Origin: Sipunculus nudus
Lineage: Eukaryota; Annelida; Sipuncula; Golfingiida; Sipunculidae
Reading direction: 5' to 3'
Assembly: GCA_026874595.1 (NCBI GenBank)
Contig: CM049314.1
Coordinates: 57,274,300-57,338,299, forward strand
DNA: 64,000 nt
In this document: in pieces, positions 10,213-57,777 of the stretch
Position numbering within the stretch: position 1 is the first letter of the stretch
How the letters are laid out: each line of letters opens with the position of its first letter
Program-made: the position numbers and the translations under genes
Notes under the pieces: generated by a model
The model's database searches: none
What the model saw: the letters and a program-made list of their open reading frames with translations, nothing else
Told to the model about the DNA's origin: nothing

Positions 10213-13200
10213 TAGCTCAAGCTGACTCTAAGTCATCTGAGCTATAGCGATCACCCTTTGTCCGTCATCCGTCCGGCCGTTTGTCCGTAAACAGGGCACA
10301 AATCGTAACCGCTGGACCTGTAATCTTCTCACTTGACATCCAGGGAGATCCATGAAAATTCTCAATGAAAACCTGGAATTAGGTCTCTGTTACCCATATT
10401 CTTTGAGCTATGGGGCTCCGAAGTACCCCCAAGAGTAATGGAAAATTTGATACAAAAAGCTCAAGTATCTGAACAACTAATGCATTGATCACCATAATTC
10501 TTTGCATATATATTGATCATGGAGTGTTCCATCAGTTTCTGCAGACTGGTGGGGCTACCTATATTTTTTAAATTTTTTTACGATTTTTTTTTCTTTATTT
10601 TTGAGACCTTAAAAAAATGTGGTCATCTGTTTACAGAGCACAAATCGTAACCACTGGACCTAGAATCTTCTTTCTTGACATGCAGATAGGTCAATGAAAA
10701 GTCTCTTTGGAAACCTGGAATAAGGTCTCTGTTACCCATTTTCTTCTAGCTATTGGGCTCTGAAATACCCCCCCAGAATAATGGAAAATTTGGTATAAAA
10801 GCTCAAGTATCTGAACAACTAATGCATTGATCACCATGATTTTTTTGCATAGATATTTGTCATGGAGTGTTCCATCAGTTTCTGCAGACTGGTGGTGCCA
10901 CCTGTATTTTTCAATGTTTTACGATTTTTAGCTCAGCTGACTATAAGTCATCTGAGCTATAGTCGTGGTCCTTTGTCCGTCGTTCGTCCGGCCGGCCGGC
11001 CGTCCATTAACAGGGCAAGTTTTAAAACCGTTGGACCTATGAATCCAAAATTTTGCATACAGTTAGGTGTCCACAAAATCTCCTACCATACTGAAAATTG
11101 AGTCATTAGGACTTCGTTCCTTCGAAATATTAAGGAAAAACCTCTGTTTTCCATAAAAAAAAGCCATTGTTACACTCGAAGGCTGCCTAATATCAAAACC
11201 ACTGGTCTGTTTTTGATCATATTTTGTATTCATATTCTTCCATACATTGTCTATTAACATACCAAAACTTAGGGCAGTATTGGGTATTGTTTTGAAGTTA
11301 TTAGCCCAAATATAATGCAATTTTTTAAAAATCAGGAAACATATTTCCTCATTTAACTTGAGAATTCCTGAAGCTGGAGTAAAACTTCACCAGGTGTGAA
11401 ATGGACTAATAATTCCAGTAAATAATTAAAGTTGAGATAGTAATTAGCACAATGATGTTGTTTGTCCCACATTCAACTAACTGTATATACTTTATTTGAA
11501 AAGATGGTTTTATTTTATCAAATTTACTGAATCTTTTATTTTGGTGAATAAAATTAAGCATGTACTGAAAACTCCAATGTACAAAACTTTTTAATAGTGA
11601 TTCAATGAATAACCTTGAAGATGCCATGTTATGGATTTATTTTCTTTTAAATTCAGTTTAAACATTTGTGATTTAAAAATAATAAAATATATGTGTATGC
11701 ATAATATGACCCAATATGAGCTAAACTCTGGATAAATTATGATTGCAACTTAGAATTCTGATATTTTAACTTATATTTTCAGATTTTTTTATTACAAATT
11801 TATAAAACTTGTAAATAAAAAAAAAATGAATATGATAAAAACCATTAATGGAAAAAGTGGATATGCTAAAAAAATAGGCTTAAATATAAAATTAAATGCA
11901 TTATTCCCTTGAAAGTGATATAGGTATTAGTCCATTCTGTCCACTTGCCTGTCCATCTGTAAATTTTTTCATATGCATCACAGTATCTCAAAACTTTAAC
12001 TGTTTTTCTTCATGACAGTCTTCTCAGAGTATAAGTTTTGCAATCATATATTCAGAACTTTATTATAACCAAGTAGGAGGGCCCCTATCCTTTTAGCTTC
12101 TCATATGCTTGTATATATGAAAAACATTACAATAGAATATTTTGCATGTTTTGCATTTGCAAACATTTCAGACTTCAGCTGAGCACCGTGACCCATGGGT
12201 CCCTTGTTTTTCTCTATTTTTGAGACCTTAAAAGATGCAGTCATCTGTTAACAGGGCACAAATGGTAAACACTGGACCTAGAATCTTTTTATCTTGACAT
12301 GCAGGGAGGCCCGTGAAAGGTCCCCTAGGAACCTGGAATTAGGTCTCTGTTACCCATATTCTGTGAGCTTTGGGGCTCTCAAGTACCTTGCAGAATAATG
12401 GAAAATTTGATACAAAGGCTCAAGTATCTGGACAACTATTGCATTGATCACCATGATTCTTTGCATGGATAATAATCATGGAGTGATTCATCAGTTTTTG
12501 TAGACAGGTGGCGCCACCTGTATTTTTTTCAATTTTTTTTACATTTTTTTCTCTATTTTTGAGACCTTAAAAGATGCGGTCATATGTTAACAGGGCACAA
12601 ATCGTAACCACTGGACCTAGAATCTTCTATCATGACATGCAGGGAGGCCCATTAAAAGTCTCCTTGGAAACCTGGAATTAGGTCTCTATTACCCATAACC
12701 TCTGAGCTATAGGGCTTTGAAGTACCCCAAAGAACAACTTAAAATTTGATACAAAAGCTCTAGTATCTTAGCAAATTGTGCATTAATTGACATGATTTTT
12801 TGCATGCATATATATCATGGAGTGTTTTATCAGTTCTTGCAGACTGGTGGCGCCACCTGTATTTTTTTGTATTTTTTTTTTTTTAAGATTTTTTTTTCTC
12901 TATTTTTGAGACCTTAAAAGATGCAGTCATCTGTTAACAGGGCACAAATGGTAACCATTGGACCTAGAATCTTCTATCTTGACATGCTGGGAGGTTAATA
13001 AAAATATCTCCGTGGAAACGTGAAATTAGGTCTCTGTTACCCATATCCTCTGAACTATGGGGCTCAGTAGACCCCCAAGAAAAACTTAAAATTTGATACA
13101 AAAGCTCTAGTATCTCAACAAATTGTGCATTAATTGCCATGATTCTTTGCATGCATATTCATCATGGAGTGTTTTATCAGTTCTTGCAGACTGGTGGCGC

Positions 13201-13748
13201 CGCCTGAATTTTTTCCAATTTTTATGCATTTTCTCTCTATTTTTAGACCTTCAAAGATGCGGTCGTCTGTTAACAGGGCAGGGAGGTCAATGAAAAATAT
13301 CTTTGGAAACCTGAAATTAGGTCTCTGTTACCCATATACTCAGAGCTATGGGGCTTATAAGCACCCTTTGCATAATTGAAAATTTGATACCAAAGTAGGG
13401 CAAAAATCATAACTATTGGACCCAGAATCTTCTCAGTTGGCATCCGGAGAGTTCCTCAAAAGTTCTCCCCTCAAAACCTGAAATTGGGTCACTCTGACCT
13501 ATATTCTCAGAGTTTTTGGGTATGTTTGAGCATCCCATAAGTAATGAAAAATACACACAAATTGCCAGGTTCCTCAGGAAAGGCTGGTTGGATTGTCATC
13601 AAATTTGGTGTGCTAATGAGTCTTGATGAACTTAAGCTAAAATGCATAAATGATGATGCCACCTATATTATCTTAAACAGTTTCCTGTGCAAGGACATAT
13701 TGTCAACATGTCAGTCGGCTGAGCATCATGACCAACCGGTCACTTATT
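10213..13748 (+). mobile_element. TAGCTCAGCTGA-family element with about 335-bp tandem units, interrupted by a nested copy
   Basis: Left end at 10213 is a TAGCTCAAGCTGAC...GTCATCTGAGCTA hairpin followed by a CCGTCC-rich tract. The right end has TCGGCTGAGC at 13715-13724 (inverted relative to the left end), then the short palindrome GACC-AACC-GGTC at 13730-13741 and a T-rich end. Between lie five to six units with marker GGCACAAATCGTAACC-like at 10296, 10631, 12256, 12595 and 12942, a period of about 335-347 bp. Units end with GGTGGCGCCACCT (perfect at 12507 and 12846, variants at 10891 and 13193). The second unit is split by the element at 10929-12206. Architecture suggests a non-autonomous Helentron-like element; no transposase seen. 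Confidence 0.8.
10929..12206 (+). mobile_element. Nested TAGCTCAGCTGA-family element
   Basis: Begins with TAGCTCAGCTGACT, loop ATA, AGTCATCTGAGCTA (14-bp stem, one mismatch), then GTCCGTCGTTCGTCC. Ends with TCAGCTGAGC (12175-12184, exact inverse of the left-end GCTCAGCTGA), the perfect palindrome GACCCATGGGTC (12190-12201) and CTTG at 12203-12206 followed by T's. It interrupts a tandem unit of the host element: host text ...TTTACGATTTT precedes it and TTCTCTATTTTTGAGACC follows it, as in uninterrupted units. Its interior at 11380-12120 is closely similar to 40345-41100, so it shares a subfamily with the copy at 38693. It encodes nothing recognisable. Confidence 0.82.
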
Positions 13749-14397
13749 TAAAGAAGTGATTTCTTTAAAGTATGGCCTAGCATTGACCTTTTTAAGTTAT
13801 AAGCATATTACAGAATTATTGTCCTTTGTTTCAAAAGAGGATTGTTAAATTGCTTCATGATTGATGAGTGGGGGAGGGTCAGAGTTTGAATGTGACAAAG
13901 ATTGATTCTTCCTTTTGTCAAATGTTAATTTAGATCTCCAAAGAGCTGTATACTAGGGAAGTTTTCATCTTTGAAGTCATAATGGATGCATGTGGACTAT
14001 TTTCTGCCATGAAATGGGTTCTGGAAAGGAGACAGTATTCTTTTGACAAACCAGCCTATGTTGAAAATTTCATTTTAAGTTGTGTATATATTATGCGTTC
14101 ATCATGACCAATTTTGTCATGACAAGCATTTACAATGAAAAAAAGTGACAAATGTAAGAAAAAATGAAAACTTGCTAATTATTGTTACCATAAAAAAAGT
14201 TTTTTTATCTTTTAATTTGAGTTTAAGGATCTTCAAACAGTGATTTCATTATCCCTTCTCCAAGTAAAAGAATTGTTCTTATTGTTTGTTCATATTTATC
14301 CAGATCACAGGTGTTGTAGTGGTTTTTAGGGGACTGGGTAAAAGTGTTGGAAGGATTCGGATGAAATTTTGTGGAGGAATATTATAAATAATATATA

Positions 14398-14480
14398 GTA
14401 AAAACTCTCTTAACAACCACCTCGGTTTATTGACCACCTCAAAATAACAACCAATTTTTCTCAGTCCCAATTCTCTTTCA
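14398..14480 (+). repeat. MITE-like end (AACTCTCTTAACAACCACC)
   Basis: A TA-flanked segment beginning AGTAAAAACTCTC and running through ACAACCACCTCGG. It resembles the ends of the pogo/Tigger-type MITEs at 46651 and 59482. The opposite end was not located. Confidence 0.35.
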
Positions 14481-16069
14481 GGTCAAGCAAACATATTCCA
14501 AATCTCATTATATTATCATATAACAATTGCCTATGAAAAAAATATTCATAGAGATTTTACATAAAATGAGCTCAGCTCCTGGAGGAAAAACATTTTTTCT
14601 ATCAATTTTCCTAAAAAAAACATGAGGTTATGTGATTTGTTCAAATACTATTGGCACATCTATGAGCACTGTCAACTCAGCAGTGACGTCACACACTGGG
14701 AAATCCCCTGTGACTAAAAATTCAAGATCTCAGTGAAAGCACAGTATTTCTGCCACTGTCAGTCCCAAATTTTCAGGAGGGAATAAAAACAACATGCATT
14801 ACTAGATCTGAGTTGTTGATAAAATTCAGTCCATGATGTCACGTGTAAGAGCCAATCAAATCAAGGCAAAGTCTGGGATCTGTATGAAATCTTCCATTCA
14901 CACAACAAACGCACGAGGAGTAGATTTACTTAACCTTTTGCTCTTTATATCAGACCTTGTTAAGGATTCTTCATAATTGCAAGATAGGGATGACCATCAT
15001 CATTCACAAGGTCTAAGTGAAACATTTAGTGTAAATTCCCAAATGGTGTGTGAAGGGTCCACTGCCTGCATAACACATGCACAGACACAATGTGAGCCGC
15101 AAAGCTGGCTTTTGATGGAACCATTGAGGTAGTGAACCATGGCATATTTCATGCACCAATTACATGCTACCCATTGAAGGTTAATCAGGCTTCTGGTAAT
15201 ATTCTTGATCTTGAGATGTTGAGTGGAGGTATATATGGGGTCTCTCAGTGCTTTCTAGTTTGTTTATGTTTGGATTTGGTAAATCTGACTTGGGTATATA
15301 AGGCCAATACAACAGAAGCACCCACATAGAATTGGAAATTGGCCATACATCCTAGCATAAGAGGACACTGCACAGCCCCTAGCTTTTTGGCAAAGATTAT
15401 TGCAAACTCATTTGCGTTTCCATACCAGCAGGTCTAAGGAACCTCTCATCAGTATTTTTATTACGAATATGAAAGTCAATCATTCCCGGCAAATATACTC
15501 TGATCCAAAGCCAGGCAGAAACCCCATTCTTTTATTGAACCTTGATCCTTTGATATCATTACTTAAACATGAAAGGAAAATATCTTTGTATCATTGCATC
15601 ATTTAATTTTGCCTGTCAGATATAACAAGCCTAATCTAATCTAGAATATGAAAGTCTAAAAACAGATAATCTGTTTGATAAATTGATCGAGCGAGGGATT
15701 TTTACACCCTGAAGTGTTCCAGAGGTCTATCTTATGTCTGGGAATGCAGTTTTTTTTATTAACTTTTTTTCGGTGGTTTTCTCACAGCCTGCAGTGCATG
15801 GTCCCCTTTGGCAAAGGTTAACAGTGCTTCTGCTGTGAGGTCTAAACTAATTTTCAGTGGAAGATTTTGTGTACGATATGGTTGGAAAGAGCTGCCAAGT
15901 TTGAAGCGAAAGGTGGCGTGATTTATTGCCGTAGCCTTCACCTTAAAGTGACGTGTGACAGATCAGGTTGAAGGGACATCACTGATGACCTTCAGAAGTT
16001 GGGACATCACCATCCTCCTCTCAGTCATGTGATTGTCACAAAACTGCTGGGGGAAATGTTTCCAGGGGG

Positions 16070-16258
16070 TAGAATGTGGCCCAGTGGTTAAGTAGACTTC
16101 CGAGTTGTAGGTCCTTAGATCAGTTTGAACCCTATCTGTGTCTCTAAGGAAAAATTTTGAAATCTTGATATAACTCAGAGATTTTGTGACCCTATGACTC
16201 GTAACAACAGGATGACATCAGGACTATCCTAGCCCCTGTGCATAAAATTGCCTCCATA
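16070..16258 (+). repeat. tRNA-derived SINE head
   Basis: TGGCCCAGTGG at 16077-16087 fits the RNA polymerase III A box consensus exactly. AGTTTGAACCC at 16122-16132 is a slightly degraded B box, 45 bases downstream, the spacing found in tRNA genes. The segment between does not fold as a full tRNA with a clear anticodon arm that I can see, so a SINE relic is more likely than a functional tRNA. The body continues to about 16258 with no clear tail. Confidence 0.55.
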
Positions 16259-16500
16259 GGGAGGTTATGCTTTCATTCCTGTAAATTTGTTTGTGTGTTT
16301 GTATGTTTGTTCACAACATAACTTGAACAATCATGAACAGAATCTCATGAAATTTATGGGCATTTTGGGAATAGACCAAGGAAGAATAATTAGACCCATG
16401 ATCCAAAAACATCATAAAGGAATATTCACAAATGTACAGTTACTTATGCATGTATGATCCTGGGAATATAGACCCAATAAGTGAATGGGGAGGCTTGTTT
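16259..16500 (+). repeat. Dispersed repeat related to 44385-44640
   Basis: Shares TTTGTTCACAACATAACT, then AATCATGAA...GAATC, then AAT...GGGCCA/AGACCAA-GGAAGAAT blocks in the same order with 44385-44640. Same strand. Probably a short interspersed or MITE-like family; ends not defined. Confidence 0.6.
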
Positions 16501-18768: not shown

Positions 18769-20076
18769 TTAATCAAATCCATCAAACTCATTGTCATCAC
18801 ATTCATCTTCGCCCTCAAATAGTTCCTTCAGATATTGTTCGTTAGCTCGCAGTTGTTATTCACATCGGTTGAGATGTGTGCTGATGCCGGTTACTTTAAA
18901 CGATCTCCTGATCAGTTCACCTTTGGCCTGCAGCTCCTGGTAGGCAACTCCTATCCAGTTGCACAACATCTGTTTTGTTGGCGATTTGATTCTGTCGGAA
19001 TTCAGTCCTCCTTCATCTACACTGTTCATGATAAAATCACACCACTGTTTCCTCAGAGATGCCTTGAATGGCCTGTTAATGGACACATCAAGGAGCTGTA
19101 TTTTGGAGGTGCATCCTCCGGGAATCACCGCAAGTGCAATGTTGCTTCTCTTGAATTGCCGCTTCACTGGTGGAGCTATGTGAGCTCTGAAGCTGTCGAG
19201 CACCATCAGTGCACATCTGCGTTTTGTAAACGGTTTAATGATTTCCTTTATATACATGTCCATAAGCTCTTGATCCATCCACGCTTTTTCTTGTACACAA
19301 ATTACAAATCCTTTTGGCGATTCAAGTTTCAGCTGCCTTTTGCCCTTGAATATGACCATTGACGGCAGCATCTTGCCGCTTGCCGTCACTGTCAAGACAA
19401 CTGTGATGTGGCGTTTCTCCGCACCTGTACTCCGCATACGTACTTACTTGGCTCCCGCTTCACTGATTGTTTTCCCGGGTACCACGTCGAAATATGCTGG
19501 CGTCTCATCCACATTTAGGATCATGTCATCCTCAATTTCTTCTTCTCTCCATATGGTATCTACAAACTGATGGAAACTGCCTATTTTATCCTCCAACTGA
19601 TCAGGCAGCTTTTGGGCGATGGATGTACGCGCGCGAAATGTTAGTTCATGGCGTCGCATAAACTTCTGCAGCCAGCCTCGTGACGCGGCGAATTTAGGAT
19701 CCTTTTCCTGTATGATTCTTTTCGCATATGCACACAACATCTCAGACGTCACCGGCAACTGAAGATCCTGTTGCACGAGCACCCATGCAACGATCTGGTT
19801 ATCCAAATCTTCACCCTGTACATGTCCTAATACTGATCTCTGCAGGGAACAATCATCAAGGCCAGCCTTCATCCACATAAATAGGGTGCTTGGCTTTATG
19901 CTGAGTCGTGCAGCCGTAGGACGAATGCCGTATAATTTGGCCTCATTTACTGCATCCAGCTTTTCCTTGAGCGTATACTGTTGACAGTTTGCATGTTTAC
20001 TTGCTGTTGCGGCTGTATGTAGCACTGGTACTGTCACCATCTCATTGTTATCTGGCATGTCCTGCGACTTAGGCAT
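18769..20076 (-). pseudogene. pogo/Tigger-type DDE transposase, broken by two in-frame stops
   Basis: One continuous reading frame of 436 codons on the minus strand, from the ATG at 20076 to the TAA at 18769-18771. It is interrupted only by TAA at 19444-19446 and TAA at 18856-18858. Domains in order: a psq/CENP-B N-type helix-turn-helix (about residues 33-70, YTLKEKLDAV...STLFMWMK), a CENP-B type DNA-binding HTH (about 89-148, with SRGWLQKFMRRH), and a DDE domain. Likely catalytic acidic residues are D190 in LNVDETPAYFD, D294 in VLDSFRAHI and D330 in IQLLDVSINRPFK. The PGGCTSK motif before D330 is typical of the pogo superfamily. After the second stop the frame continues into an acidic tail ending FDGFD, as such transposases often do. 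The length is near the usual 430-500 residues. I did not find convincing terminal inverted repeats; a CAGTGACATCTC end at 20963 is a candidate. It is unlikely to be active as written. Confidence 0.85.
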
Positions 20077-20199
20077 GCTTGGCCTATCATATGGTGTCTA
20101 GCGTGGTCTTCCCACTGGACGCTTGGTAGGGCGTGGTCTGTTTGGCGAACACAGTGTAGAAGGTTCCTGCACAAAAAAAGATATTTTAATTGCTATACA

Positions 20200-22601: not shown

Positions 22602-23938
22602 TAGCCCTCAGCCCTTAGGCTGATGGGCTATTGTTGTCACCCAAGCTGTCCGTCCGTCCGTCCGTCCGGCGTCCGTTAACTTTTACCTTGTGAGCGGGAT
22701 ATCTTGAAAAGGATTCACCGTCAGAATTTTATTTCCTCGGTAAAGATGTTTATCGACAAAATCTCGGTCAAGTTCGAAGATGGGTGACCTTGACCTATTT
22801 TTCTACATTTAAGAGCTGATTATAGAAAAACACTTAGATGCTTATTACTCAGGAACCATTTAGTGGATTTTCACAAAACTTACTATGGTTATTGGGACTG
22901 ATAGTCTGTACCTGCTATACAAGTTTGGTGGCGCCACCTACAATTTCTGATTTTTAATGGATTTTTATCGGATTTTTCAACTTTTGGCTTGTGAGCGGGA
23001 TATCTCAAAAAGGATTCACCGTAAGAATTTTATTTTTTCTGAGAAGATGTATATTGACAAAATCTCGGTCAAGTTCGAAGATGGGTGACCTTGACCTATT
23101 TTTCTACGTTTTAGAGCTGATTATAGAAAAAAACACTTAGATGCTTATTACTCAGGAACCATTTGGTGGATTTTCACAAAACTTACTATGGTTATTGGGA
23201 CTGATAGTCTGTACCTGCTATACAAGTTTGGTGGTGCCACCTACAATTTCTGATTTTTAATGAATTTTTATCGGATTTTTCAACTTTGGGCTTGTGAGCG
23301 GGATATCTCGAAAAGGATTCACCGTTAGAATTTTATTTTTTCTGAGAAGATGTATATTGACAAAATCTCGGTCAAGTTCGAAGATGGGTGACCTTGACCT
23401 ATTTTTCTACGTTTTAGAGCTGATTATAGAAAAAACATTTAGAAGCTTATTTCTCAGGAACCATTGGATGGATTTTCACAATACTTACTATGATCATAGG
23501 GACTGATGGTCTGTAACTGCTGCACAAGTTTGGGGGCGCCACCTGCAATTTCTGATTTTTTATTGAATTTTTCTTGGATTTTTCAACTTTGGCCTTGTGA
23601 GCGGGATATCTCTAAAAGGATTCACAATAGGAATTTTATTTCTTTGGTGAAGATGTATATCGACAAAAATCTCGTTCATGTTCGAACATGGGTGACCTTG
23701 ACCTACTTTTCAAGGTCACAGAGCTTAAAATAGAATAAAACTTAAAAGCTTTTTTTTCAGGAAGCATTTGGTGGATTGTTATGAATCATGGTACATACCT
23801 CTCCATTTTAAATTTATAACTGAGATATGTACAGATATCAACAATGTGAGAACAGATATTTAGTACTTGTTACTGTTACCACCTCTAAACACTGTTCTTT
23901 TGGCTGAGGGCTTTTGTCAGCTTTTGCTGATATTCTAG
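22602..23938 (+). mobile_element. AGCCCTCAGCC element with 302-bp tandem units
   Basis: Left end is a TAGCCCTCAGCC...GGCTGATGGGCTA hairpin (22602-22630) followed by a GTCCGTCCGTCC tract. Right end has GGCTGAGGGCT (23902-23912), the exact inverse of left-end AGCCCTCAGCC (22603-22613), then a TCAGC-TTTT-GCTGA hairpin (23917-23930) and CTAG at 23935-23938 followed by TT. The interior holds four units marked by TTGTGAGCGGGATATC near 22688, 22988, 23291 and 23595, period about 302 bp. Each unit carries GATGGGTGACCTTGACCTA and a GGTGGCGCCACCT box (perfect at 22927; one mismatch at 23230 and near 23532). Complete at both ends; no coding sequence. Confidence 0.82.
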
Positions 23939-32164: not shown

Positions 32165-34053
32165 TAGCTCAGCTGACTATAAGTCTTCAGAGCTATAGTC
32201 GTGGTCCAATGTCCGTCGTCCGTCCGTCTGTCTGTCCATCCGTCCGTAGATGTGGCAAGTTTTGAATCCGGAAGACCTAGGAATCCAAAATTCAGCATAA
32301 TAGTAGATGTCCCCAAGATCTCCTACCAAGCCGAAAACTGGGTCTTTGCGACTTTGTTCCTTTGAGAAATTAAGGAAAAACCTCAATTTTTTATTAAAAT
32401 CCTATTTTCACACTTCAGGACTGCCTAATATCAAAACCACTCATCTGTTTTTCCTCATATTTACCATTAATATTCCTCTATATAGTTCCTATGTACATGC
32501 CAGAAATTAAGTCTGTAAAATATAAATTCTTTAAGTTATGGGCCCAAACATAATGGACTTTGTAAAAAATCAGGAAAAATAATAACTCACTTAACATGAA
32601 AAATTTTGAAACTAGAGTCTATTTTCTCAAGTATATAACTATGTTTAATTAAGATTCAAATGTTTACCCAAAATTAGATCTGAATTTTGTAAATTTTTTA
32701 AGTTATTAGCATAAAAAAAAATTCAGTACCTTAAATTTTGCCCAACTTTGACCATGGCACGTTTTTTTCCTGTAAGCACCATTGATTTAATTTTCACAGC
32801 ATGTAAACATAAATATTTAGTTTGCTTAAATCTGAAATTTGAAAATAAAAGCATTAAAATTAAGCTAATTATTGATTTTTTTTCTGTAGTCATTTATTTT
32901 GATTACAGATGCAGGGTCCCACTCCAGGTCACTGGAAGTCAGCTATGCCAGGGTTTCTGATTTTGATTTGTTACAGTCACTGGGGGAGATCCCCTGCTGT
33001 GACAGGTGTACAGTTATTCTCATATCACCACCCCAATCATCCCCCCCCCCCTGCAAACCCAACCCACCCAGTGTTATGCAGCAATTGTTATTGTTTTCAC
33101 TGTATATCCTTAATTGTAATGCTGTTTCCACTCCGATATGCAAAAACTTTCCTTGAAAAAATAATTCAAGGTGTAATTCAGAAGATGCAATGTTGTGTAA
33201 TGTAGCATTTTTAAAGAAATCAATTTTCTTTTAAATGATTTTAACAAATATAATTGAACCCATCAGTATGCTTAAATTATTATAAAATATGAAGCACATT
33301 ATGGATAAATAAAGACACAATTAAAAATTGTGAAATCTAAATCAAGTATTGTTTTTAGATATTTATTGTTTTGCAGATTTAAAAGATATATTTTTGTGGT
33401 AAAAAATAAATAAACATTTGTATGCATGATGTGGTGTTATCTGACAAGATTGAGATTTATGATGATGCAATTGAGAATTATGAATCAACTTTTATATTCA
33501 GATATATATGTTAAATTGGAAATGTATAGAAATATAAACTTAAATTAGAAAATAATTGATGTGATAAAAAAATGACGATTTAATACAAACATTTGTTCAT
33601 TATTTTCCTGCCTCCGCAGAATTTGAGATCAGGCTTTGTTTGCCCTGTTTTATATTGTTATATAGCTATATTTCAACTGTATACATTTCATAAAAAAAAT
33701 ACATATATATTTAATAATATATATTATACAAGAAAATAGATTCAATTGAACAAATGTGTAAACTACTGAAATGTCAACAGTTAATCGAAAAACCAACTAA
33801 TGATCATGGTAATAGTACAGATCATTTGTTCACAAACTGCTCACATGCTTTAGTTTCAACATTAGGAAACACATGGTCAGGTCACAAAATATTTTTTGCA
33901 ACAATTTCTTGCTCATCAATACAAACCAATCATATAAACCAACCATGGCCTTTATTACCTCTTCCTCTTACACTTTATCTCCGTTTGATATTATTTTAGA
34001 TTTTTACCTTCAAGGTTAACATCAGCTGAGCACAGTGACCCATAGGTCCCTTG
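32165..34053 (+). mobile_element. TAGCTCAGCTGA-family element with endonuclease-like relic
   Basis: Left end TAGCTCAGCTGACT...GAGCTATAGTC, then GTCCGTCGTCCGTCCGTC. Right end TCAGCTGAGC (34022-34031), near-palindrome GACCCATAGGTC (34037-34048), CTTG at 34050-34053 and T's. The left 350 bp match the copy at 38693 (AAGGAAAAACC, CTTCAGGACTGCCTAATATC, CCTCTATATAGTTCCTATG). Near the right end lies a decayed endonuclease-like frame (33733-33912). Confidence 0.8.
33733..33912 (+). pseudogene. Relic of an APE-type endonuclease domain
   Basis: About 60 residues reading KIDSIEQMCKLL...QQLIEKPTNDHGNSTDHLFTN, then VSTLGNTWSGHKIFFATI. The pattern LxQLIxxPT-x-D-x-GN-x-x-D-H-x-x-TN followed by a YWSDHK-like motif is characteristic of the C-terminal part of endonuclease domains in LINE retrotransposons, and of the similar domain reported in some Helentrons. 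The usual SDH reads SGH here, so a catalytic aspartate is missing. The frame has no start that fits and ends in unrelated sequence at about 33999. It lies inside the mobile element 32165-34053; whether it came from the element's autonomous ancestor or from an inserted LINE is open. Confidence 0.5.
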
Positions 34054-38692: not shown

Positions 38693-41600
38693 TAGCTCAG
38701 CTGACTATAAGTCATCTGAGCTATAGTCATGGTCCATTGTCCGTCGTCCGTCCGTCCGTCTGTCTGTCCGTCCGTCCGTCCGTCCGTCTGGATGTCAGTC
38801 CGTAAGACTGGCACATTTCGACACCGTTGGACCTACGAATCTGAATTTCGGCATACAGTTAGATGTCCCCATAATCTCCTACCATGCCAAAAATTGGGTC
38901 AATAGGACTTCGTTCCTTTGAGATATTAAGGAAAAACCCCAATTTTTTATTAGAAATCTATTTTCACACTTCAGGACTGCCTAATATCAAAACCACTCAT
39001 CTGGTTTTCTTCATATTTACCATAAACATTCCTCTATATAGTTCCTATGTACATGCAAGATATTAAGTCAGTATTATATAATTTTAAAAAAGTTATGGGC
39101 CCAAGAATAATGGAAGATATTTGGTCACTTAAGACCAAAAGTGTTAAAGGTAGGGACTTTTTTCCAGTAATACAACTTTAATTAATCAAAATTTAATTGT
39201 ATACCAAAAATTAGATCAAAATCTGTTAAATTTTTTTAAATATTGGCAAAAATATAAAATTGGTACCTTAAATTTTGCCCAACTTTGGCCATGGCACGTT
39301 TTTTTCCTGTAAGTACTGTGGATTTAATTTTCACACCATGTATACATAAGGATTTAATCTGTTAAAATCTGAAATTTGAAAATAAAAGCTGCAAAATTAG
39401 GCTAGTTATTGAATTTTTTTGGAGGCTCTTGTTGTATTCCCTTACATTGTCAAGCAGTCCACTTTGATGACTGTAGGTCATTCAGTGCACATCTCTATGC
39501 TCCCCAGGCTGTTGACATAATTTTAGATGTCCCCAAAATCTCCTACCATACCGAAAATTGGGTCATTAGGACTTTGTTCCTTCGAGATATTAAGGAAAAA
39601 AACTCTGTTTTCCATAAAAATAAGCCATTGTTACACTTCAAGGCTGCCTAATATCAAAACCACTGATCTGTTTTTGATTGTATTTAGTATTCACATTCTT
39701 TTATACATTTTCTATGAACATAAATATATTTACTCACCTAACATGAGAATTGCTGAACCTAGAGACTTTTTTCAGGAATATAACTTTATTTAATCAAGAT
39801 TCAATTGTTTACCCAAAATTAGATCTGAATTTTGCAAATTTTTCAAGTTATTAGCATAAATAAAAAATCAATACCTTAAATTTTGTCCAACTTTGGCACT
39901 GTTGATTTAATTTTTCCAGCATATATGCATAAGGATTTAATCTTTTAAAATCTGAACTTTCAAAAGAAATTGATTGGAATGAATAGCTTTTATTCATGTT
40001 TTCATACACCATGTCAAGTGTTGTTTACATCTAGCCCACCTAGTAGTATGGCCTTCACTTGCATTATGTAACCCACCCCAGGCAGCTTACCTTGGCCCAG
40101 CTTGGCCACTACTAGCAGGCTTCCCCTCTGCCCTGCACTCATCCCCCCAGCTGGTGCATAAACTAGATGAATGTTATAATTTTTCTGTATTCTATTTTAT
40201 TCTTGGACATGCTACATTTTAGATTTTGTATTGAACCACCAGGGTTACAATGATTAAAGTGTACATTTAATTGTGTCCACAAAGTGGTGTATTGCTGTGA
40301 AAGTGTGGATGTTCATGAGATAAGTAATCCCTTACTTCAGAAGAGTAAAAACTTCACCAGGTGTGAAATTGACTATTAATTCCAGTAATTAATTAAAACT
40401 GGGATAGTAATTAGCACAATGATATTGTTTGTCCCTCATTCAACCAACAGTGTGTATACTTTATTTGAAAAGATGTTTTATTTTATCAAATTTACTTTTA
40501 TTTTATTTTGGTGAATAAAATTAAGCATGTCCTGAAAACTCCAATGTGCAAAACTTTTTAATAGTGATTCAAAGAATATTCTTGTAGATGCCATGTTGTG
40601 GCATTATTTTCTTTTAAAATCAGTTTAAACATTTATGATTTAAAAATAATAAAATATATGTGTATGCATAATATGACCCAATGCTTTTTACTCTGTATAT
40701 ATAATGATTGCAACTTTTGCAACAATTCTAATATTTTAACTTATATTTTCAGGTTTTTAATTAAAAATTTATAAACCTGTAATTAAAAAAATGATTCAGA
40801 TAAAAACTTCTTAATGGAAAAAGTGGATCTGCTTAAAAAAATAGGATTATATATAAATTTAAATGCATTATTCTCTTGAAAGTGAAATAAAGGTATTAGT
40901 CCATTCTGTCCACTTGCCTGTCCATCTGTAAATTTTCGTATGCAACACAGTATCTCAAAACTTTTACTGTTTTTCTTCATGACAGTCTTGTCAGATTATT
41001 AGTTTGCAATCATATATTTAGAACTTTACTATAACCAAGTAGGAGGGCCCCTTTCCTCTTAGCTTTTCATATTCTTATATAAATGAAAAACATTACAATA
41101 GAATATTTCTACATCCACCTTCGTGCTGCCCTCACTTTTCCCTTCTCCGAACCCCATCCCAAAGTTAGCCTCAGTAAGCAAGAACAAGATGAATCAGATA
41201 TATTCATACTTTAATATTTTGTATAACTATTCGTCCATAGGTACCTATGTACATGCCAGAAATTATGTCAATATTGTGTAATATGTAGACATAGTGGGCA
41301 TCACAATAATGTACATTGTCAAGACTAAAGAGATATTGTGTCATACAGTCACATATTCATAAATCACTTCATCAGCATAGTTAATCATAACATCATATCT
41401 GTCAAATTGAACGCTTGCAGACTACCATACACTTTAGATCCACTAACAAATAGCCTTATCATCATTCTACTACTGCTTATTACTGCTGTCATTGCATTCA
41501 TATTTGCTCAAATATATCACAATTTTCAACCCCTCCTAAATAAATAAAAAATAAACCACTTTATTTGACTCTATTAATCCATCAGTCAGGTAATTTCATT

Positions 41601-41754
41601 TATCATTTACTCACATATTACATTACATTCCTTTATAATAGCCCAACATGTACATGATATTCATAAGCTTTATCGACTCGATATAGTATCACAGTGGAGA
41701 AACATTTATAGTCCAATCACGATCAGCTGAGCGCCGTGACCCATGGGTCCCTTG
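38693..41754 (+). mobile_element. TAGCTCAGCTGA-family element, longest copy
   Basis: Left end TAGCTCAGCTGACT-ATA-AGTCATCTGAGCTA hairpin followed by about ten CCGT/CTGT units. Right end TCAGCTGAGC (41723-41732), perfect palindrome GACCCATGGGTC (41738-41749), CTTG 41751-41754 and T's. The left part matches 32165-32510. A second internal head-like segment begins near 39524 (ATGTCCCCAAAATCTCC), so the copy has an internal partial duplication. 40345-41100 matches 11380-12120 of the nested element. The window near 41400-41545 has a hydrophobic open frame that I cannot assign. Confidence 0.82.
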
Positions 41755-46598: not shown

Positions 46599-46603
<5 letters not shown>

Positions 46604-46650
46604 TGATTTAACAAATACCAGGAAACATCCATTTGTTGGGAGCTTTGTAT

Positions 46651-49982: not shown

Positions 49983-50839
49983 TGCTTGCCAGAAATCTTT
50001 TATTTCAGCAAGCATGATGGTCACCTGCATATGTCTGTTTGTTCATTTGTCACGACTCTACAGGCCACAATTTTGCAGCAATTGCTTTCAAACTTGCACA
50101 ACTGTTAGACAAATGAAAAATACTGGAACCCTAATGTTTTTGGTCAAAATAAGTCAAGGTCATCAAAAAACTTTTTTGTTTTATTTCATCATAATTTCAT
50201 CATTATTAGTCATATCTTCACAAGTTTAGGCTCGATTTCTTCCTCCTAGCCTTCTCCATAACCAGGTCTGGTTGAAGGGTCTTGATCTTGTGTCAGTTTG
50301 TCAGTATGTCTGTCTGTTAGTCAGTTGTTTTCGGTTGCGCCTGCTTCCTGGTTCTTGCATCTTAGTTACAGCATACTACAGGCCACAGTTTTGCAGGAAT
50401 CATCTTGAAACTGGTACATCTCATGTCTTACACAAATATCTCAAAAGTGATTTTTCATTTTCTAGATATGGTCGCTAGGGGGCCCTGCACTCCCACCTCC
50501 CCAGCATATCATTTTCTGGCCGGCCAGCTGTCCCAATTTCTTTTTTGCTGGTTCATGTGTCTTACATATAACATTCTTCAGTCCTTAGTTTTGCTGGAAT
50601 CACTTTGTAACTTACATATATCGTATGTCTTAAAGATTTCTAGATGTTCTATGTGTATTTTCTAAATGGGTCAAAGGTCAAGGTCATCAAAACACACGAA
50701 AAACTTATTGCCTTCAAACTTTCACAATATTGGTCTTATCTTCACAAGCAATGACTCATTTTCTCCCTCTTCTTCCTTGCTCATTCATCTGACTATTTCT
50801 GTGTCATTTCCGGCAAGCACTCGACCTTAGGTCGTCTAG
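49983..50839 (+). mobile_element. TGCTTGCCAGAAA element with Helentron-like ends
   Basis: Left inverted repeat TGCTTGCCAGAAA (49983-49995), also pairing with ATTTCAGCAAGCA (50002-50014) as a hairpin. Right inverted repeat TTTCCGGCAAGCA (50807-50819), matching the left one at 12 of 13 positions. It is followed by palindrome CGACCTTAGGTCG (50822-50834) and CTAG (50836-50839) with T's. The interior has three diverged units marked by ACAGGCCACA(G/A)TTTTGCAG near 50061 and 50379 and a weaker one near 50575. Complete and non-coding. Confidence 0.78.
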
Positions 50840-51110: not shown

Positions 51111-51291
51111 AGATGGCACTCAAGCGCCGTAGTTGAAGAAGTCAGGGACCCCAGCCCTAGGGGTTCATTCAGCAACAATAAAGATGATATCTAATTGAAT
51201 GTTTAATCACAATCTATTTACTGTTACGCCCAAAGATTAGGAGAATTTTAGGGGAGATAGAGATAATAAGCTAAGGTCTATAAATATTATA

Positions 51292-51654
51292 CTAGGTGCA
51301 AGGTAAGATCAAACTGACTTGAAAAGGCTGCTTGCTTAGTTGATGTGATGTTTGTCTCTTTCTACATAGGATGCGGTAGGATTTATCTAGAGAAGAAACA
51401 AATGTAATTTTGGCTATTGAATGCTTGCAAACATTCGTTAAGATTTGTATTGAGTTTATATGTTTTATCCTGTAGTGTTGAGGGATTGTTCTATCATGTA
51501 ATCTTTTAACAGTCAGTGTGTTTGTGCATGCTCTTAATACTGCTGTTTTAGTGAACCTACTAACTCTTAAGACTGCTCTGAGGGCTTTATTTTGTTGAAC
51601 TTCTAGTTTATGTAAGAGTGTCTTAGCTGCACTTAAGAAAGCTATGGATCTCAT
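51292..51654 (-). pseudogene. C-terminal relic of a non-LTR retrotransposon polyprotein
   Basis: A 120-residue open frame on the minus strand. Residues 10-60, KTLLHKLEVQQNKALRAVLR...TAVLRACTNTLTVKRLHDR, fit the conserved region that follows the reverse transcriptase domain in Jockey/I-like LINEs (LxKLExxQNxALRxxLGxxRxTxTxxL...PLxxR). No reverse transcriptase catalytic motif is present and the upstream frame is not continuous, so this is a 5'-truncated, decayed copy. The remaining 60 residues resemble nothing I can name. Confidence 0.5.
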
Positions 51655-52799
51655 TTACAACCTTTTCATTGCCTGAGAATTGAAAATAAACAAGCCTTGC
51701 AAACTGATGATGTCAGTCAATTGAAGGTGATGCACAACCAGTCATTGTGACTCATTTACAGGCAGCCATAGACATAGCAAGTGTACCACATGTCTCACTA
51801 CCTCTGTCCATCTAAATTTTCATAATATTTCTTTCAAATTTATTTAGTTTGCAACTACACATTAGTTATTATCAGAGGAGATAAAATATTGTATAGAACT
51901 GTTCAATTCAAAGTTATCTGCTGATGGAATGCATCTTAGTTTGTCACTGGAGTCAAGACATATATAAGCAGTAGTGATATACTTGTACTTCCAGTAAAAA
52001 GAAAATCCATAATGATGGCACATGTTGCTAAAACCTTTCTTATATCACAAAGTATCACCTTCTACCTTTAAATACATATTTTGACTGTGCTGTTACCTTG
52101 CTGGTAATGCTTATTATTTATCTGAAATTATTAAAGGGGCGGTCCTAGGCCAAAAAAAAAAATAAATAAATAAATTTGGTTCTCAGGCACTGTTTGTCAA
52201 TTCTAACCCAATGCATAAAAAATTTGATTTAGATTTTCATCCTCCAAGAAGATAAAATGATACAAATTTGCTAAGATTTCCTTTGTTATTTAGTGCCTTT
52301 ACCTGTTTAGCAAAATAATCTGTTATTATCATGCTTTTCCTTGATCATATGACATTTTTATCAAAACATACAAAAAAGGTAAAAAAAACATTCGCCCGCC
52401 CATACTGATTTCTTTAAAAAAAAGTGCCAGTGAACCATTCTTTTATATTTTTTTGGCTCACACACAAGATTCTGTGCTGGCTGTTTGTGTTTTTGGGAGC
52501 CCATATTTTTTTTTTTAATGTTTGAAGAGGCAGACCTGTTTTATTTCTTATATATAAATGATGAATTTACTATTTGGACACTACGTAAGCTGATTCTGTA
52601 GACACTGGTGCATTAAAAGCACAAAGACTCCAGGATATAATGTGATTGTTTCCATGGACTATTGATATATGACACTGAAGTATTGGAAATTCTTTAAGCT
52701 TGCTAGTACATGAACCCTGTGTAGGATCCTCAATTAGTGACGTATGAATTTTCTTAAATCTTTTGCGAGCATAAGAGATCATTCACTTTAAAGTCTTCG

Positions 52800-53289
52800 G
52801 TGGCATTGATGTTTTGTTTGTTTGATAGTGCACCATACAATACTGAGCTGATGAAACAAAAATTCCCCGAACTCTGGGATGCTCAAGGTCACAGGGTTAC
52901 AAGTGTCCAGTCGCTTGACTCCATCCAGCAGACGTAGTCAATATATTCATCAGCTTTTACAAGCTGTGGCTGCTGCCGGGGTCACTGAACAAGCACTGTA
53001 ACACAGCCAGATAGGGACCCCGCTCTAACTAGAGAAGCTGTTACTCAGTAGAACTGGAGGATGTTGTGAAACCGGAGAAGCAGTGCCCTACACGTAACAT
53101 TGTGTCCTAAAAGCCAGTACTTCAGGTTTTATTCACTTCCATCACACAGTACTGTAGCAGCACTGCCACGCTTGCCTGAGGGGTTTCGGTGAAAACGGAC
53201 AAGGTGTGAGCTACTGTAGAAACACTCCCAGACAAGTGGTTGAGTGTTTATCCGCTAAGATATTACGAGGATTTCTGCGGAACAAGCCA
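52800..53289 (+). other. Exon-like non-repetitive island ending in a splice donor
   Basis: About 490 bp richer in G+C than the flanks, without repeats. It ends in CAGCTGTGAG/GTAACG at 53289/53290, which fits a splice donor. No frame is open throughout, so if transcribed it would be a 5' untranslated exon. In Drosophila a shorter CASK isoform is made from an internal promoter; an internal start here would sit downstream of the L27-C core. This is inference with no TATA or initiator evidence. Confidence 0.2.
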
Positions 53290-53449
53290 GCTGTGAGGTA
53301 ACGATCCATGTAACCTTCACATCTGAGTTCATGGCCTCTTATTGATAATATCGAAAGGTGGTTCTCCAGTTATATCAAGCAGAGCATTCAATGAATCTTA
53401 TAAAAATTATGATCTGTAAAAGGTATTACCCTAGCTTAGGAGGATTTAT

Positions 53450-53600
53450 GTCTTCATCCATATGTCTGTTTGTTTGTCTGTTAGCAGGCTTATGTAAAAA
53501 CTACTGAAAGTATTCCCAAGAAACTTTGTCAGCAGGTGGAACAGCAGGGGAATATCATTATTTTTTTATGAAGATCCAGATAAAGGGAGGGATTAAGTAG
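53450..53600 (+). repeat. Dispersed repeat with TTGTCTGTTAGCAGG
   Basis: GGAGGATTTATGTCTTCATC, then CTGTTTGTTTGTCTGTTAGC and AAAACTACTGAAAGTATTCC, similar in order to 7110-7170 and 51030-51110. Ends near the start of the next element at 53604. Confidence 0.55.
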
Positions 53601-53603
53601 GTT

Positions 53604-53960
53604 TATTATACGCCCGTGTAAGACAGGCCATATTTCAGGCAGTGTGCATCTGTCTGTCATTTAACTCGCAATCGCTGAGGTAACTTGCCTGGGATTGAAT
53701 GAATTTTAACAAACCTTTATGTAACAATTTACCAATAGATTATGTGGACGGAGTTGGATTTTCAACAAAGTTCACTAATGTTTCATGAGGTTAGAGGTCA
53801 ACAGGTTTCTTTCTGGTTTCATTGGAATAACTTTGCTTTGATGGATTTTCATAAAAATTACTATAAATATTTATCTCCTGAATTAAATTATTAGCCAATA
53901 TTTAATGAGGTCAAAAGCCACCAGACAAATGAGGGGCAAATCATGCATTTATTCTTGCTC
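53604..53960 (+). mobile_element. TTATACGCCCGTG-type element fragment
   Basis: Head TTATACGCCCGTGTAAGACAGG, then CATCTGTCTGTCATTTAAC and repeated ATGAATTTTAAC / ATGGATTTTCAT with GAGGTTAGAGGTCAACAGG and GAGGTCAAAAGCCACCAG. Related to 21291-21840. No 3' end found. Confidence 0.55.
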
Positions 53961-54735
53961 ATCTCCTGGTGGAGGTTTAGGCTCTATAGAGTATCATCCT
54001 GAAGCTTCAATAACAGCATGGACAAGGGAAGTATAATATCTTAGATTTGTCACCTGTAGTGTGACAATGAAGGCTGTTAAGTACAGAGATTGTCATGTTC
54101 TTCATAGTGGAATTGTAGCTATTTGTGGTGAGGCAGCAGAGGGGGTATTTGTAAGATCCCCAAGGACCAGCATAAATGATCCACTCTCCATACATACCAG
54201 AAGTGGCTCAGAGATAAATGTGAGCTTAGTGATCCATGCTGGGAGAGTGACCAGTAGGGGCAGATGGATGCCCAGCAGTGGAAGGCCAGGGTTAATTACG
54301 TGGGAATGACACATGCAAGGGAGTCTGCTTGGGATAATGGCGACTGGGATTATCTGAGCATGTGCCTGGTCCATCTACACGTTTCAGGGTATTATCACTG
54401 GATATCACTTCTTGTAGGTTAGGGCCATGACCTCCAGTTAACATTTTTGGGTGTTTTTGAAAATTGTTACACAATAATACAATAACAGATGATACATGTG
54501 TTATTATCAGGCTTTCTGTACCTTTGGTTTGCTCTGCATCTCATATTTTATCCAGATTTTCATGTAATAAACATTTCAAGTTAGATGAAGGACAAAATCC
54601 CATCCCTGGTCATGGAACTGGTTATGGATTGGTTATAATTATTGCCAGTATAACGATATTTTATGTAATTAGTATGACTCCTTTGTATCATCTAGAAATG
54701 ATGATAACAAATGGTTGCTCAAGAATTTTAATTCA

Positions 54736-54806
54736 TTACCCCAGAAATAATATTATGATTTTATTAAGTTTTACCCCAGAAATAATATAATGATTTTTTT
54801 TAAGTT
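54736..54806 (+). repeat. Two-copy 35-bp tandem duplication
   Basis: TTACCCCAGAAATAATAT starts at 54736 and again at 54771, each followed by an AATGATTTT/ATGATTTTA and AAGTT block. Confidence 0.9.
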
Positions 54807-55641
54807 TTAACCTTTTCATATTGGATATTACAGTTTTATTCAAAGCAATGTTTCATGTTTCAAAGTGTGTTTTCCCAAAGCACATTATATCCTGTAGGTC
54901 ATGTCTAGTACAAAGCCATACATTTAGTTTCATTTTGTGCCCATTTACACAGGCAGCAAGAATGGAAAGACGTTTTTTGTCCAGTCCAGGCAGAACCCAC
55001 TATGGGTGACTCAGTGGCTGCAGGTTATGGGCGGTACATATGTAAGGTGACTATAGGGACTTGTTGTGACATTTGTGCCAGCATGTCTAATGCAAGATAT
55101 TTGTCAAATGTCAACCACCATTATTCCAAGCAGCTTTGTCATTGCATGACCAAGCAGCTATTTCGTACATTTCAAATCTAAGCCTGACTTGATCCGAATT
55201 TGTTTTACCTAATGGTGAGATTGATTGCATGATTACCGCCTGTATTAGGATCAAATTTCTTGGTGTATTTACATTTAATCATGCTTTCTGGTTCTGGTAC
55301 TCCTTCTGTGTTGTTCATCATAAATCAATTATATGAAATTATGATATCAGCATGCCTTTCATCCCAGGCCAGTTTCAAAATCAATGAAATACGAAAAATA
55401 GCAGCTGCTTTCAGTGCCCCCTGGTGTTTGTCTTAAAATAGAAGAACAGTTGCGATTCAAGTCCTGACATCTAGTAGAAGATTTAGGTGGTGTTTAGAAC
55501 AGGCGGCATTGACTAGTCAAAATTGTTACATTTAACCTGTGTTTCCTTGTGAGCATATGTGGGTATATGCATAAAAAAATTAGGTGTGTTTCCATGTGCC
55601 TTTAAATTCATATATGTATGAACTGATAGGTGTGTGTAATT

Positions 55642-57777
55642 GTATACCCAGACAAAGTCGGGGGATACTATGTTTTCATACCGGTCCCGCTGCCGCTGCT
55701 GCATATAAATCTTGTTGGTGCGATAACCCAAAAAATATTTCATGGAACTTTACCAAACTTGGTATATGTATAGATATAGGTAAGAGGATGATGCCTATTT
55801 AAAATGAGGTCATGACCTTTCCTATAAGAGTGGCCTTGACCTTGAATATTGCCATGTATCGTGAAAATCACACACCTCTAATGATATCTCCAGTGTTGAT
55901 AGCCATATGGATTTCAAACATGACTTATGTATGGCCCACCACTAAAGTAAGAACCCTAGGGTTCTAGGGTCATGAGGTCAAAGGTCAAGGTCACTGGAAT
56001 GGCATCTTAAAAGATACTGTGGATGCATTTTAAGCCAAACTTTCATCCCAGGTCTTCCTTCTTGAATATATAGCTCACTTGCCAATAGTGGATGATCCAT
56101 ATCAATTTTGGGGTCACAAGGCCAAAGGTCAAGGCCACAGGAGCTATCTGTCCAAAAATTAGTTTCTGGATGATAATTCGTGCTTTTATTGATGTATTGA
56201 TTTCAAACTTGACTTATATATGTCCAATTGAAAAAGCAAGACTCCAATTGATTTTGTGGTCATGAGGTCAAAGGTGAAGGTCACAGGAGACATCTGTCAA
56301 AAAATTAGTTTCTGGATGATAATTCCTTCTTTTATTGATGTATGGATTTCAAACTTGACTTGAATTTGACCCATTGGAAAAGCAAGACCCGAATTGATTT
56401 TGGGGTCATGAGGTCATTGGTCAAGGTCACAGGAAACATCTTTGAAAAGATGTGGATGCATTTTCAGCCAAACATTTCATCTCAGATCTTTCATCTTGCA
56501 CATATAGTTCACCTGCCAAGAGTTGAAGACCCCTATCAATTTAAAGGTCACAAGGTCAAAGGTGAAGGTCACAGGAGCCATCTGTCCTAAAATTAGTTTC
56601 TGGATGATAATTTCTGCTTTTATTGATTTATGGATATCATACTTGACTTGTATATGTTCCATTGGAAAAGCAAGACCGAAATTGATTTTGGGGTCATGAG
56701 GTCATTGGTCAAGGTCACAGGACACATCTTTGAAAAGATGTGGATGCATTTTCAGCCAAACATTTCATCTCAGACATTTCATCTTGCACATATTGTTCAC
56801 CTGACAAGAGAGGAAGAACCCTATCAATTTTGAGGCCACTAGGTCAAAGGTGAAGGTCACAGGAGCCATCTGTCCAAAAATTAGTTTCTGGATGATAATT
56901 CCTTCTTTTATTGATGTATGGATTTCAAACTTGACTTGTATTTGACCGATTGGAAAAGCAAGTCCAGAATTGTTTTTGGGGTCATGAGGTCAAAGGTCAA
57001 GGTCACAGGAAACATCTTAAAAAAGATTGTGGATGCATTTTCAGCCAAACAATTCATCTCAGATCTTTCATCTTGCACATATAGTTCACCTGGCAAGAGT
57101 TGAAGACCCCTATCAATTTTTAGGTCACAAGGTCAAAGGTGAAGGTCACAGAAGCCATCTGTCCTAAAATTAGTTTCTGGATGATAATTTCTGCTTTTAT
57201 TGATTGATGGATTTCATACTTGACTTGTATATGTTCCATTGGAAAAGCAAAACCGAAATTGATTTTGGGGTCATGAGGTCATTGGTCAAGGTCACAGGAC
57301 ACATCTTTGAAAAGATGTGGATGCATTTTCAGCCAAACATTTCATCTCAGACCTTTCATCTTGCACATACAGTTCACCTACCAAGAGAGGAAGAACCCTA
57401 TCAAATTTGAGGTCACAAGGTCAAAGGTTAGAGTCACAGGAGCCATCTGTCCAAAAATTAGTTTCTGGATGATAATTCCTGCTTTATTGATGTATAGATT
57501 TCAAACTTGACTTGTATATGTCCCATTGGAAAAGCAAGACCTGAATTGATTTTTGGGTCATGAGGTCAAAAGTCAAGGTCACAGGACACATCTTTAAAAA
57601 GATCAAGGTCACAGGACCAACATCTTCAACAAGATTGTGGATTCATAGATGGAAGAAACAATAAATATGCCAAGTGTCAGCATATGCTGCTAAAAATGGG
57701 GGCCTATTCTTAAAGGGGGGGGGGGGGCTACTATGTCTGGGGATACTCTGGCACCTGCGGTGCCAAGAAATGTCTAG
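55642..57777 (+). mobile_element. GTATACCCAGACA element with exact 288-bp tandem units and AGGTCA boxes
   Basis: Left inverted repeat GTATACCCAGACA (55642-55654), which also pairs with GGGGATAC (55661-55668). Right inverted repeat TGTCTGGGGATAC (57734-57746), matching at 12 of 13 positions. It is followed by hairpin TGGCACC-TGC-GGTGCCA (57749-57765) and CTAG (57774-57777) with TT. In the interior, AGGTCATTGG/AGGTCAAAGG boxes fall at 56411, 56699, 56987, 57275 and 57563, exactly 288 bp apart. A second series lies near 56553, 56841, 57129 and 57417. Each box has the form AGGTCAAAGGTCAAGGTCAC. The recurring short open frames starting ATGGATTTCAAACTTGACTT arise because 288 is a multiple of three. 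Confidence 0.85.

Follow-up and report, generated by a model that had tools for sequence, protein, structure and literature searches.

Why should a single stretch of annelid DNA carry several families of repeats that differ in sequence and yet finish in the same way, and what moves them? The question is raised by 64,000 nucleotides of the Sipunculus nudus genome (hereafter the window; C9:57274300–57338299, in a genome of 1.43 Gb and 153 contigs), in which we distinguish four families, F1 to F4. Our analysis leaves little doubt that the window holds several high-copy families of non-autonomous Helentrons (HINEs), presumably moved by a Rep/helicase into runs of T. A preliminary description of the window had proposed a Helentron-like nature, and this is supported by boundaries shared among copies, empty sites in T-runs, a Helentron-type Rep encoded in the genome and the presence of the F2 5′ end at Rep loci.

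The end design common to F1–F4 consists of a hairpin-forming 5′ repeat, an inverted copy of it near the 3′ end (together the subterminal inverted repeats, subTIRs), a short palindrome, CTAG or CTTG, and T. F1 (22602–23938, with ~303-bp tandem units) opens with TAGCCCTCAGCC at 22602; its 3′ subTIR lies at 23902–23912, the palindrome at 23917–23930, and CTAG closes the element at 23938. F2 (49984–50839, diverged interior units) has a 5′ hairpin of the GCTTGCC..GCAAGC type starting with GCTTGCC at 49984, a 3′ subTIR at 50807–50819, a palindrome at 50822–50834 and CTAG ending at 50839. In F3 (55642–57777, ~288-bp units), GTATACCC from 55642 pairs with GGGGATAC in a weak hairpin, and the inverted copy (57734–57746), the palindrome (57750–57764) and CTAG (to 57777) follow. 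F4 is represented by a copy at 10930–12206, with a 5′ hairpin, a 3′ GACCCATGGGTC palindrome and CTTG, and by two more copies ending in CTTG, at 32166–34053 and, with an internal duplication, at 38694–41754. The first of the three lies inside an outer F4-related element (10214–13746, ~340-bp tandem units), which it splits and which ends in CTTA. Every HINE recognised in the window is on the plus strand.

We also scanned the window for this architecture, defined as a 5′ hairpin after TT, an 11-nt inverted copy with at most one mismatch, a palindrome, and CTAG or CTTG followed by T. Seven raw matches at five places were found on the plus strand and none on the minus strand; 100 dinucleotide shuffles of the window, read on both strands, gave a mean of 0.18 matches and a maximum of 2. 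Four of the places are real elements (F4 at 10930, F1, F4 at 38694 and F2) and one (54685–56650) is spurious. The scan is strict, since F3, the F4 copy at 32166 and the outer F4 element escape it. Taken together, the re-read end letters, the scan and the folds bear out the earlier claim of at least four families with one terminal architecture, subject to some corrections. The F4 copy placed at 10929 is there (10930), but nested in a larger related element; CTAG or CTTG closes F1–F4, but not the outer F4 element; and 5′ hairpins are present in F1–F4, but some folds are weak (−4.6 kcal/mol for the F3 5′ hairpin and −1.8 kcal/mol for the F4 3′ end).

Do copies elsewhere in the genome respect the same boundaries? 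For F1 (3499 candidates, 40 scored) we compared the ends of 14 copies, including the window's own and two that represent a duplication sharing flanks. TTTTT precedes AGCCC in all 13 copies whose 5′ end the search expression recognised (the fourteenth gave no match); after CTAG comes T in every one of the 14, and TT in 12. Past both ends the information falls sharply and the flanks are unrelated. For F4 (10,743 candidates, 40 scored, 30 loci examined), an expression that itself demanded CCCT[TAG]G identified 28 3′ ends in 23 of the 30 loci: 26 CTTG, one CTAG and one CTGG, with T next in 27. At least five T's stand ahead of 13 of the 17 matched F4 5′ ends, the other four having 4, 2, 0 and 0. 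Among the F3 ends fetched (7987 candidates, 40 scored), ATTGTATC is common to all four 5′ ends, and the four 3′ ends read CTAGTT in three cases and TTAGTT in one. The T5 on the 5′ side, present in F1 and F4, is missing in F2 and F3, of which the genomic copies read begin TTTATT- or ATT-. Copies elsewhere, fewer than the 100 or more that the preliminary description had envisaged, do end at the inverted repeats and CTAG or CTTG.

To look at the sites before insertion, we joined the flanks of 20 insertions (window F1 and inner F4 each entered twice) and compared them with other sequence. Of the 33 junction-crossing matches, two are an element's own 3′ end (L003, L006), two pairings at L016 share one 3′ end and many repeat the window array; four clear empty-site cases were kept. 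F1 in L004 is surrounded by T5 and T4, as against T7 in the uninterrupted repeat at L066. In L010, where F4 sits inside an F4 copy, the filled site has T5+T1 and the empty one T4, and TT duplication is therefore ruled out there. Within the window, the inner F4 interrupts a T-run in the array of the outer element, other units of which show the empty state. Finally, F4 in L033 has T5+T4 when filled and T8 when empty, the empty relative being window 52373–52450. These insertions leave one or two extra T's and no longer duplication was seen at the four sites. HINEs are described as targeting TT and carrying T strings (PMC4067079); insertion here is likewise T-rich and without target duplication, save possibly for a single T.

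The next question was whether the genome encodes a matching Rep. Helitron_like_N gave 143 genome matches (150 of 195 candidates scored). In the 30 loci read, Rep motif 2 is RGSPH in 26, RGWPH in one and RGLPH in one, and was not found in two; the residue that varies is S in Helentrons and L in Helitrons (PMC4067079). Frames of 1204 aa in L041, L043 (C4) and L050 each contain DUF6570, OTU and Helitron_like_N, and OTU (PF02338) is above the cut-off and in frame with Rep in all three elements scanned (C4, C7:31578448 and C13:66180677). The whole C4 Rep frame is 2229 aa long, and the Rep region of L043 matches Helraiser (E 1.7e-6).

Two other classes of element could be invoked to explain the repeats. 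If they were cut-and-paste miniature inverted-repeat transposable elements (MITEs), the inverted ends would be the terminal inverted repeats (TIRs) of a DDE transposase; the high copy number would suit this, as would the presence of short inverted repeats at either end, and the window holds transposase-like frames that we take to be of the DDE (pogo-like) kind. However, the inverted repeats lie asymmetrically: that on the 3′ side is about 20–30 bp inside the end, and only this side has an extra palindrome. Nor was the combination of TIRs and target site duplication found: the empty sites, which are paralogous and lie in T-runs, show extra T's only, and TT duplication is excluded in L010. We therefore regard a MITE origin as very improbable, and we give scarcely any credence to the other proposal, derivation from canonical Helitrons rather than Helentrons. 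The 3′ palindrome is indeed of rolling-circle style, the CTAG of F1–F3 fits CTRR, and the RGLPH of one among the 30 Rep loci is Helitron-type. Yet of the features of canonical Helitrons (5′ TC, CTRR, insertion between A and T, no inverted repeats) only CTAG fits, the ends here being inverted repeats with a 5′ hairpin; the Helentron-type S is found in 26 of the 30 Rep loci, and the C4 element with an F2 end, described below, encodes an OTU protease domain.

Is any HINE family of the window tied to a particular Rep-bearing element? For F2 the answer appears to be yes. About 7 kb separate the C4 Rep domain from a ~331-bp array of F2-type units, and F2 aligns locally with this array at E 4e-42. 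A genome search with the C4 array and its right flank (4126 candidates, 40 scored) found arrays of the same type, in the same place and orientation 6–7 kb from Rep, at C7:50482167 (95% alike), C2:7643210 (90%) and C3:43366583 (91%), the C2 and C3 matches being partial; a less similar array (84%, partial) lies about 8 kb from Rep at C7:16041919. Stand-alone copies were found as well, one of which (C4:79424068) sits between two F2 3′ ends. Followed outward from the array, the C4 DNA terminates in the F2 hairpin TTGCTTGCCGGAATC...GATTTCGGCAAGCA, with GCTTGCC at C4:36163192, and the 11-bp GCTTGCCGGAA of this Rep-bearing 5′ end, once reverse-complemented, matches the genome-wide F2 3′ subTIR at 11 of 11 positions. 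When the C4 end was used as query (4311 candidates, 39 scored), 35 of the 45 other long matches started at the same point (query 1219–1240) and 10 about 60 bp inward; none of the 45 reaches further left than the C4 end. Colinearity put the expected C7 end near C7:50469810, and the hairpin was then found in the 1100 bases fetched, with GCTTGCC at 50469823. The C7 and C4 hairpin stretches are 96.8% identical over 598 bp and their left flanks are different. The Helentron-type S motif is present at both loci (L043 on C4, L052 on C7). Thus, judging from the two sequences, a Rep-bearing element that begins with the F2 end appears to have inserted separately on two chromosomes.

In both elements the Rep strand is opposite to the hairpin-to-CTAG direction. 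This orientation is unusual but known: most Helentrons carry Rep in plus orientation and Helentron-Da-40 carries it in minus (PMC4067079). Taken as a single element, the Rep-bearing stretch measures at least 22.9 kb.

It might be argued that the hairpin at C4 and C7, rather than being the end of the Helentron itself, marks a HINE that landed later beside an unrelated Helentron. As a later arrival would have it, C4 resembles 28 of the 45 other long matches over its first 1.26 kb (98–99% identity) more closely than it does C7 (95–97%); moreover, the 3′ end of the partner has not been seen, and the DNA read does not include 2.9 kb of the C4 open reading frame (ORF) region or a 1.0-kb piece (C4:36181552–36182551). 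On the other hand, the same junction occurs at two loci on different chromosomes, at a position that colinearity predicted, and in C4, C7, C2 and C3 alike the arrays keep a fixed position with respect to Rep. Within C4:36161951–36170551 (8601 bp), the only match to the F2 3′ subTIR with up to two mismatches is the hairpin's own arm, and there is no matching palindrome; the Rep locus has one two-mismatch match, which lacks a palindrome. We consider a later insertion unlikely and favour the hairpin as the Helentron's own 5′ end.

The 3′ end of F2 is informative in another respect. Its exact pattern of 25 fixed bases has 2453 matches in the genome (1284 forward and 1169 reverse), and the reversed control pattern has none genome-wide. 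In the first 100 F2 3′ ends listed, all on C1, the pair that closes the palindrome on the outside reads C-G in 56, T-A in 43 and C/A in one. Such a switch on both sides of the stem is what would be expected if the hairpin is needed, because a needed hairpin predicts paired change. The F2 3′ stem is kept by paired changes, the counts being counts of copies. The 2453 ends constitute a natural data set on the hairpin shape required for termination.

Several observations weigh against the assignment of the window repeats to Rep-driven HINEs, or against parts of it. The scan statistic is post hoc, as the criteria were written after examples had been seen. The extra T's at filled sites may be element-borne or, where there is one T, a duplication, and the two are indistinguishable. 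The 100 C1 ends are copies of few subfamilies, partly in tandem clusters, and do not represent independent events. The window F2 copy differs from the Rep-bearing end at one of the 11 subTIR positions. The stretches read, which extend to C4:36186051, contained no 3′ end of the Rep-bearing element, and C7, as well as several less similar relatives, matches C4 to the end of the last stretch (C7 at 97%). The part of the C4 ORF region expected to hold the PIF1 helicase and C-terminal AP endonuclease (C4:36170552–36173439) is outside the DNA read. Of the two F2-end loci, C4 alone shows intact coding; at C7 the open Rep frame spans no more than 276 aa, and this copy looks decayed. No partners were linked to F1, F3 or F4. 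The F2 end is accordingly tied to a Rep-bearing element, at the level of sequence, by 5′ end and array alone, and the autonomous copies with matching ends that had been anticipated for these families are represented by the F2 5′ end at two Rep loci.

If the ends differ, what of the interiors? The window contains the word TCAAGGTCA 17 times, against 0.45 expected over its whole length; 15 of these occurrences fall within F1, F2 or F3. The palindrome GGTGGCGCCACC, counted on both strands, gives 16 counts and hence 8 sites, all of which are in F1, the outer F4 element and an element starting at 2027. The latter is the 5′ half of an F3-like HINE on the plus strand (2027 to approximately 3650, with a hairpin at about 2027–2055 and 280-bp units); no 3′ end for it was found in the window, and its ends resemble F3 at E = 0.006 only. 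Local alignments connect the outer F4 element with the 2027 element (E 4e-8) and F1 with the outer F4 element (E 2e-5), while most other cross-family alignments are short words or have weak E-values. The alignments show units that are distantly akin between elements, and modules have thus been mixed; swapping of ends was not seen among the elements compared. The description of the families as unrelated thus applies to the ends of F1, F2, F3 and F4, but not to the outer F4 element, which has F4 ends, to the F3-like element at 2027 or to the shared interiors. Similarly, of the proposed modular system, in which related Rep/helicase proteins would mobilise elements with swappable ends, we find shared interior modules between differing ends but no end swap, and F2 alone is tied to Rep. 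A further word, AGGTCAAAGGTCA, occurs three times in the window, twice in F3; both it and TCAAGGTCA resemble what we take to be nuclear-receptor half-sites.

Bivalve pearl repeats have a tandem interior between HINE-type flanks, as do the elements described here. Pearl has been re-categorised as a non-autonomous Helentron (PMC7492417). The window repeats are HINEs, an already known kind of element (PMC4067079, PMC7492417). With the HINE/DINE-1 elements and Helentrons of mite, mosquito and Drosophila they share palindromic subTIRs, the matching 3′ subTIR, the 3′ palindrome, central repeats, T strings, TT insertion, multiple subTIR-defined families per genome and the Helentron-type Rep motif (PMC4067079). 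The likeness is one of architecture and not of end sequence, and in Sipunculus the Rep-bearing stretch, at least 22.9 kb long, opens with satellite-like arrays. The Cg_HINEs of the oyster Crassostrea gigas, too, are numerous, combine flanks and satellite-like repeats in unique ways, and insert in T-rich targets without target duplication, with empty sites found (PMC7492417). Arrays of all 13 satellite-like clusters studied in oyster are central repeats of non-autonomous Helentrons, and the shared interiors and differing ends seen here fit that picture of flank and central-repeat combinations (PMC7492417). Again the likeness is by description rather than by sequence. In oyster, 10 autonomous Helentrons could not be related to Cg_HINEs (PMC7492417), whereas here one end family is tied to a Rep element by 5′ end and array. 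A limited literature search, which covered few subscription journals, found no report linking a bivalve HINE to a Rep-bearing element. What we believe to be new is the F2 partner, identified by 5′ end and array in two insertions, together with the paired stem change. With a HINE family that shares its 5′ end and array with a Rep element, both the partner question and the origin of central repeats become testable.

How might such elements move? A Helentron Rep/helicase would nick at the element end, and one strand would be displaced, beginning at the 5′ hairpin subTIR; displacement would halt at the 3′ subTIR and palindrome, then CTAG or CTTG, and the product would be inserted into a T-run without target duplication. 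We infer from our analysis rolling-circle movement, hairpin-based termination and mobilisation of F2 by an OTU-Rep Helentron; that F1, F3 and F4 each have a Rep lineage of their own is a guess. A bolder proposal, which we put forward tentatively and consider rather doubtful, is that every end family marks a separate lineage of giant Helentrons, and that the Rep recognises the 3′ end through the shape of the hairpin and not through its letters; the C-G to T-A switch in the stem would point that way. If so, F2 would belong to OTU-Rep elements of at least 23 kb with a 5′ satellite-like array and Rep on the opposite strand. HINEs would retain only the ends and a piece of the array, scattered satellite units would be copies of autonomous 5′ arrays, and lineages with a herpes-tegument-like protease would own other ends.

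Further Rep-bearing loci showed features of their own. In L071, the plus-strand frame before Rep (L071:2905–4500, C13:9106153–9107748) opens with a herpes-tegument-like protease (PF04843, E 8.5e-13), so that the protease ahead of Rep is of PF04843 type in this lineage and OTU in the F2-type lineage. A paper on herpes-tegument-like deubiquitinases mentions Helitrons 35 times (PMC9741609). Pfam detected no RPA in the L072 ORF, and a 192-aa ORF near the C13 element had no match up to E 0.1. At L066:457, on the minus strand, an A-run next to a Rep frame (a T-run on the element's own strand) is the site of a member of another HINE family, whose 5′ hairpin is ATGCCCCCGCC...GGCCGGGGCAT. L068 is 98% like L066 from 457 on and has other sequence at that point; this divergence point was considered as a Helentron 5′ end and rejected, being the reverse-strand 5′ end of that other family. 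An inverted-repeat search for autonomous ends in the C4 and C13 flanks returned only chance-like pairs, and no end was found for the C13 lineage or the C11/C17 pair, in which homology ran past the DNA fetched. L072:3230–4074 was dropped as a HINE, since it looks like a piece of a retrotransposon with a T-run at one end.

The uniform plus orientation of the HINEs in the window led us to compare strands elsewhere, using best-scored or first-listed places with copies within 10 kb collapsed. Among copy pairs outside the window, 10 kb to 2 Mb apart, 38 of 57 are on the same strand (permutation 0.01), as are 24 of the 38 cross-family pairs of this set (0.07). F2 ends listed on C1 share a strand in 38 of 49 pairs at 10–300 kb (0.04), or 6 of 9 once the one driving cluster is taken out, and in 59 of 103 pairs at 0.3–2 Mb (0.56). 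Compared with F1, F3 and F4, the C1 F2 ends (cluster removed) are on the same strand in 10 of 29 pairs (0.98), a comparison that left out the window and C4:289481, C4:60749167 and C5:92028766. With this additional C1 set, a general strand rule for HINEs is rejected. T-runs are likewise ruled out as the cause of the bias in the window, which outside the elements holds 121 T-runs of at least five against 169 A-runs.

Two smaller features complete the window: an F4 5′-end fragment on the plus strand (63734–63870, the right limit being approximate), and two adjacent open frames on the minus strand (18856–19443 and 19444–20097) that presumably derive from a pogo/Tigger-type DNA transposase (18856–20097). 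Tandem arrangements were noticed elsewhere in the genome. At C11:79011812–79020848, six F2-type matches follow one another head to tail at a step of 1552–1554 bp, within 250 bases of the contig end at 79021090; the array is possibly a chromosome-end satellite made of HINEs. At C5:92030380–92087038, matches to the 5′ part of F2 recur at steps of about 13.82–13.88 kb, as if a large unit were arranged in tandem. Ahead of some elements (C2:66718683–66718932 and C15:61666899–61667208), the F2 5′ end has its outermost ~60 bp, comprising the hairpin and a microsatellite, tandemly repeated several times.

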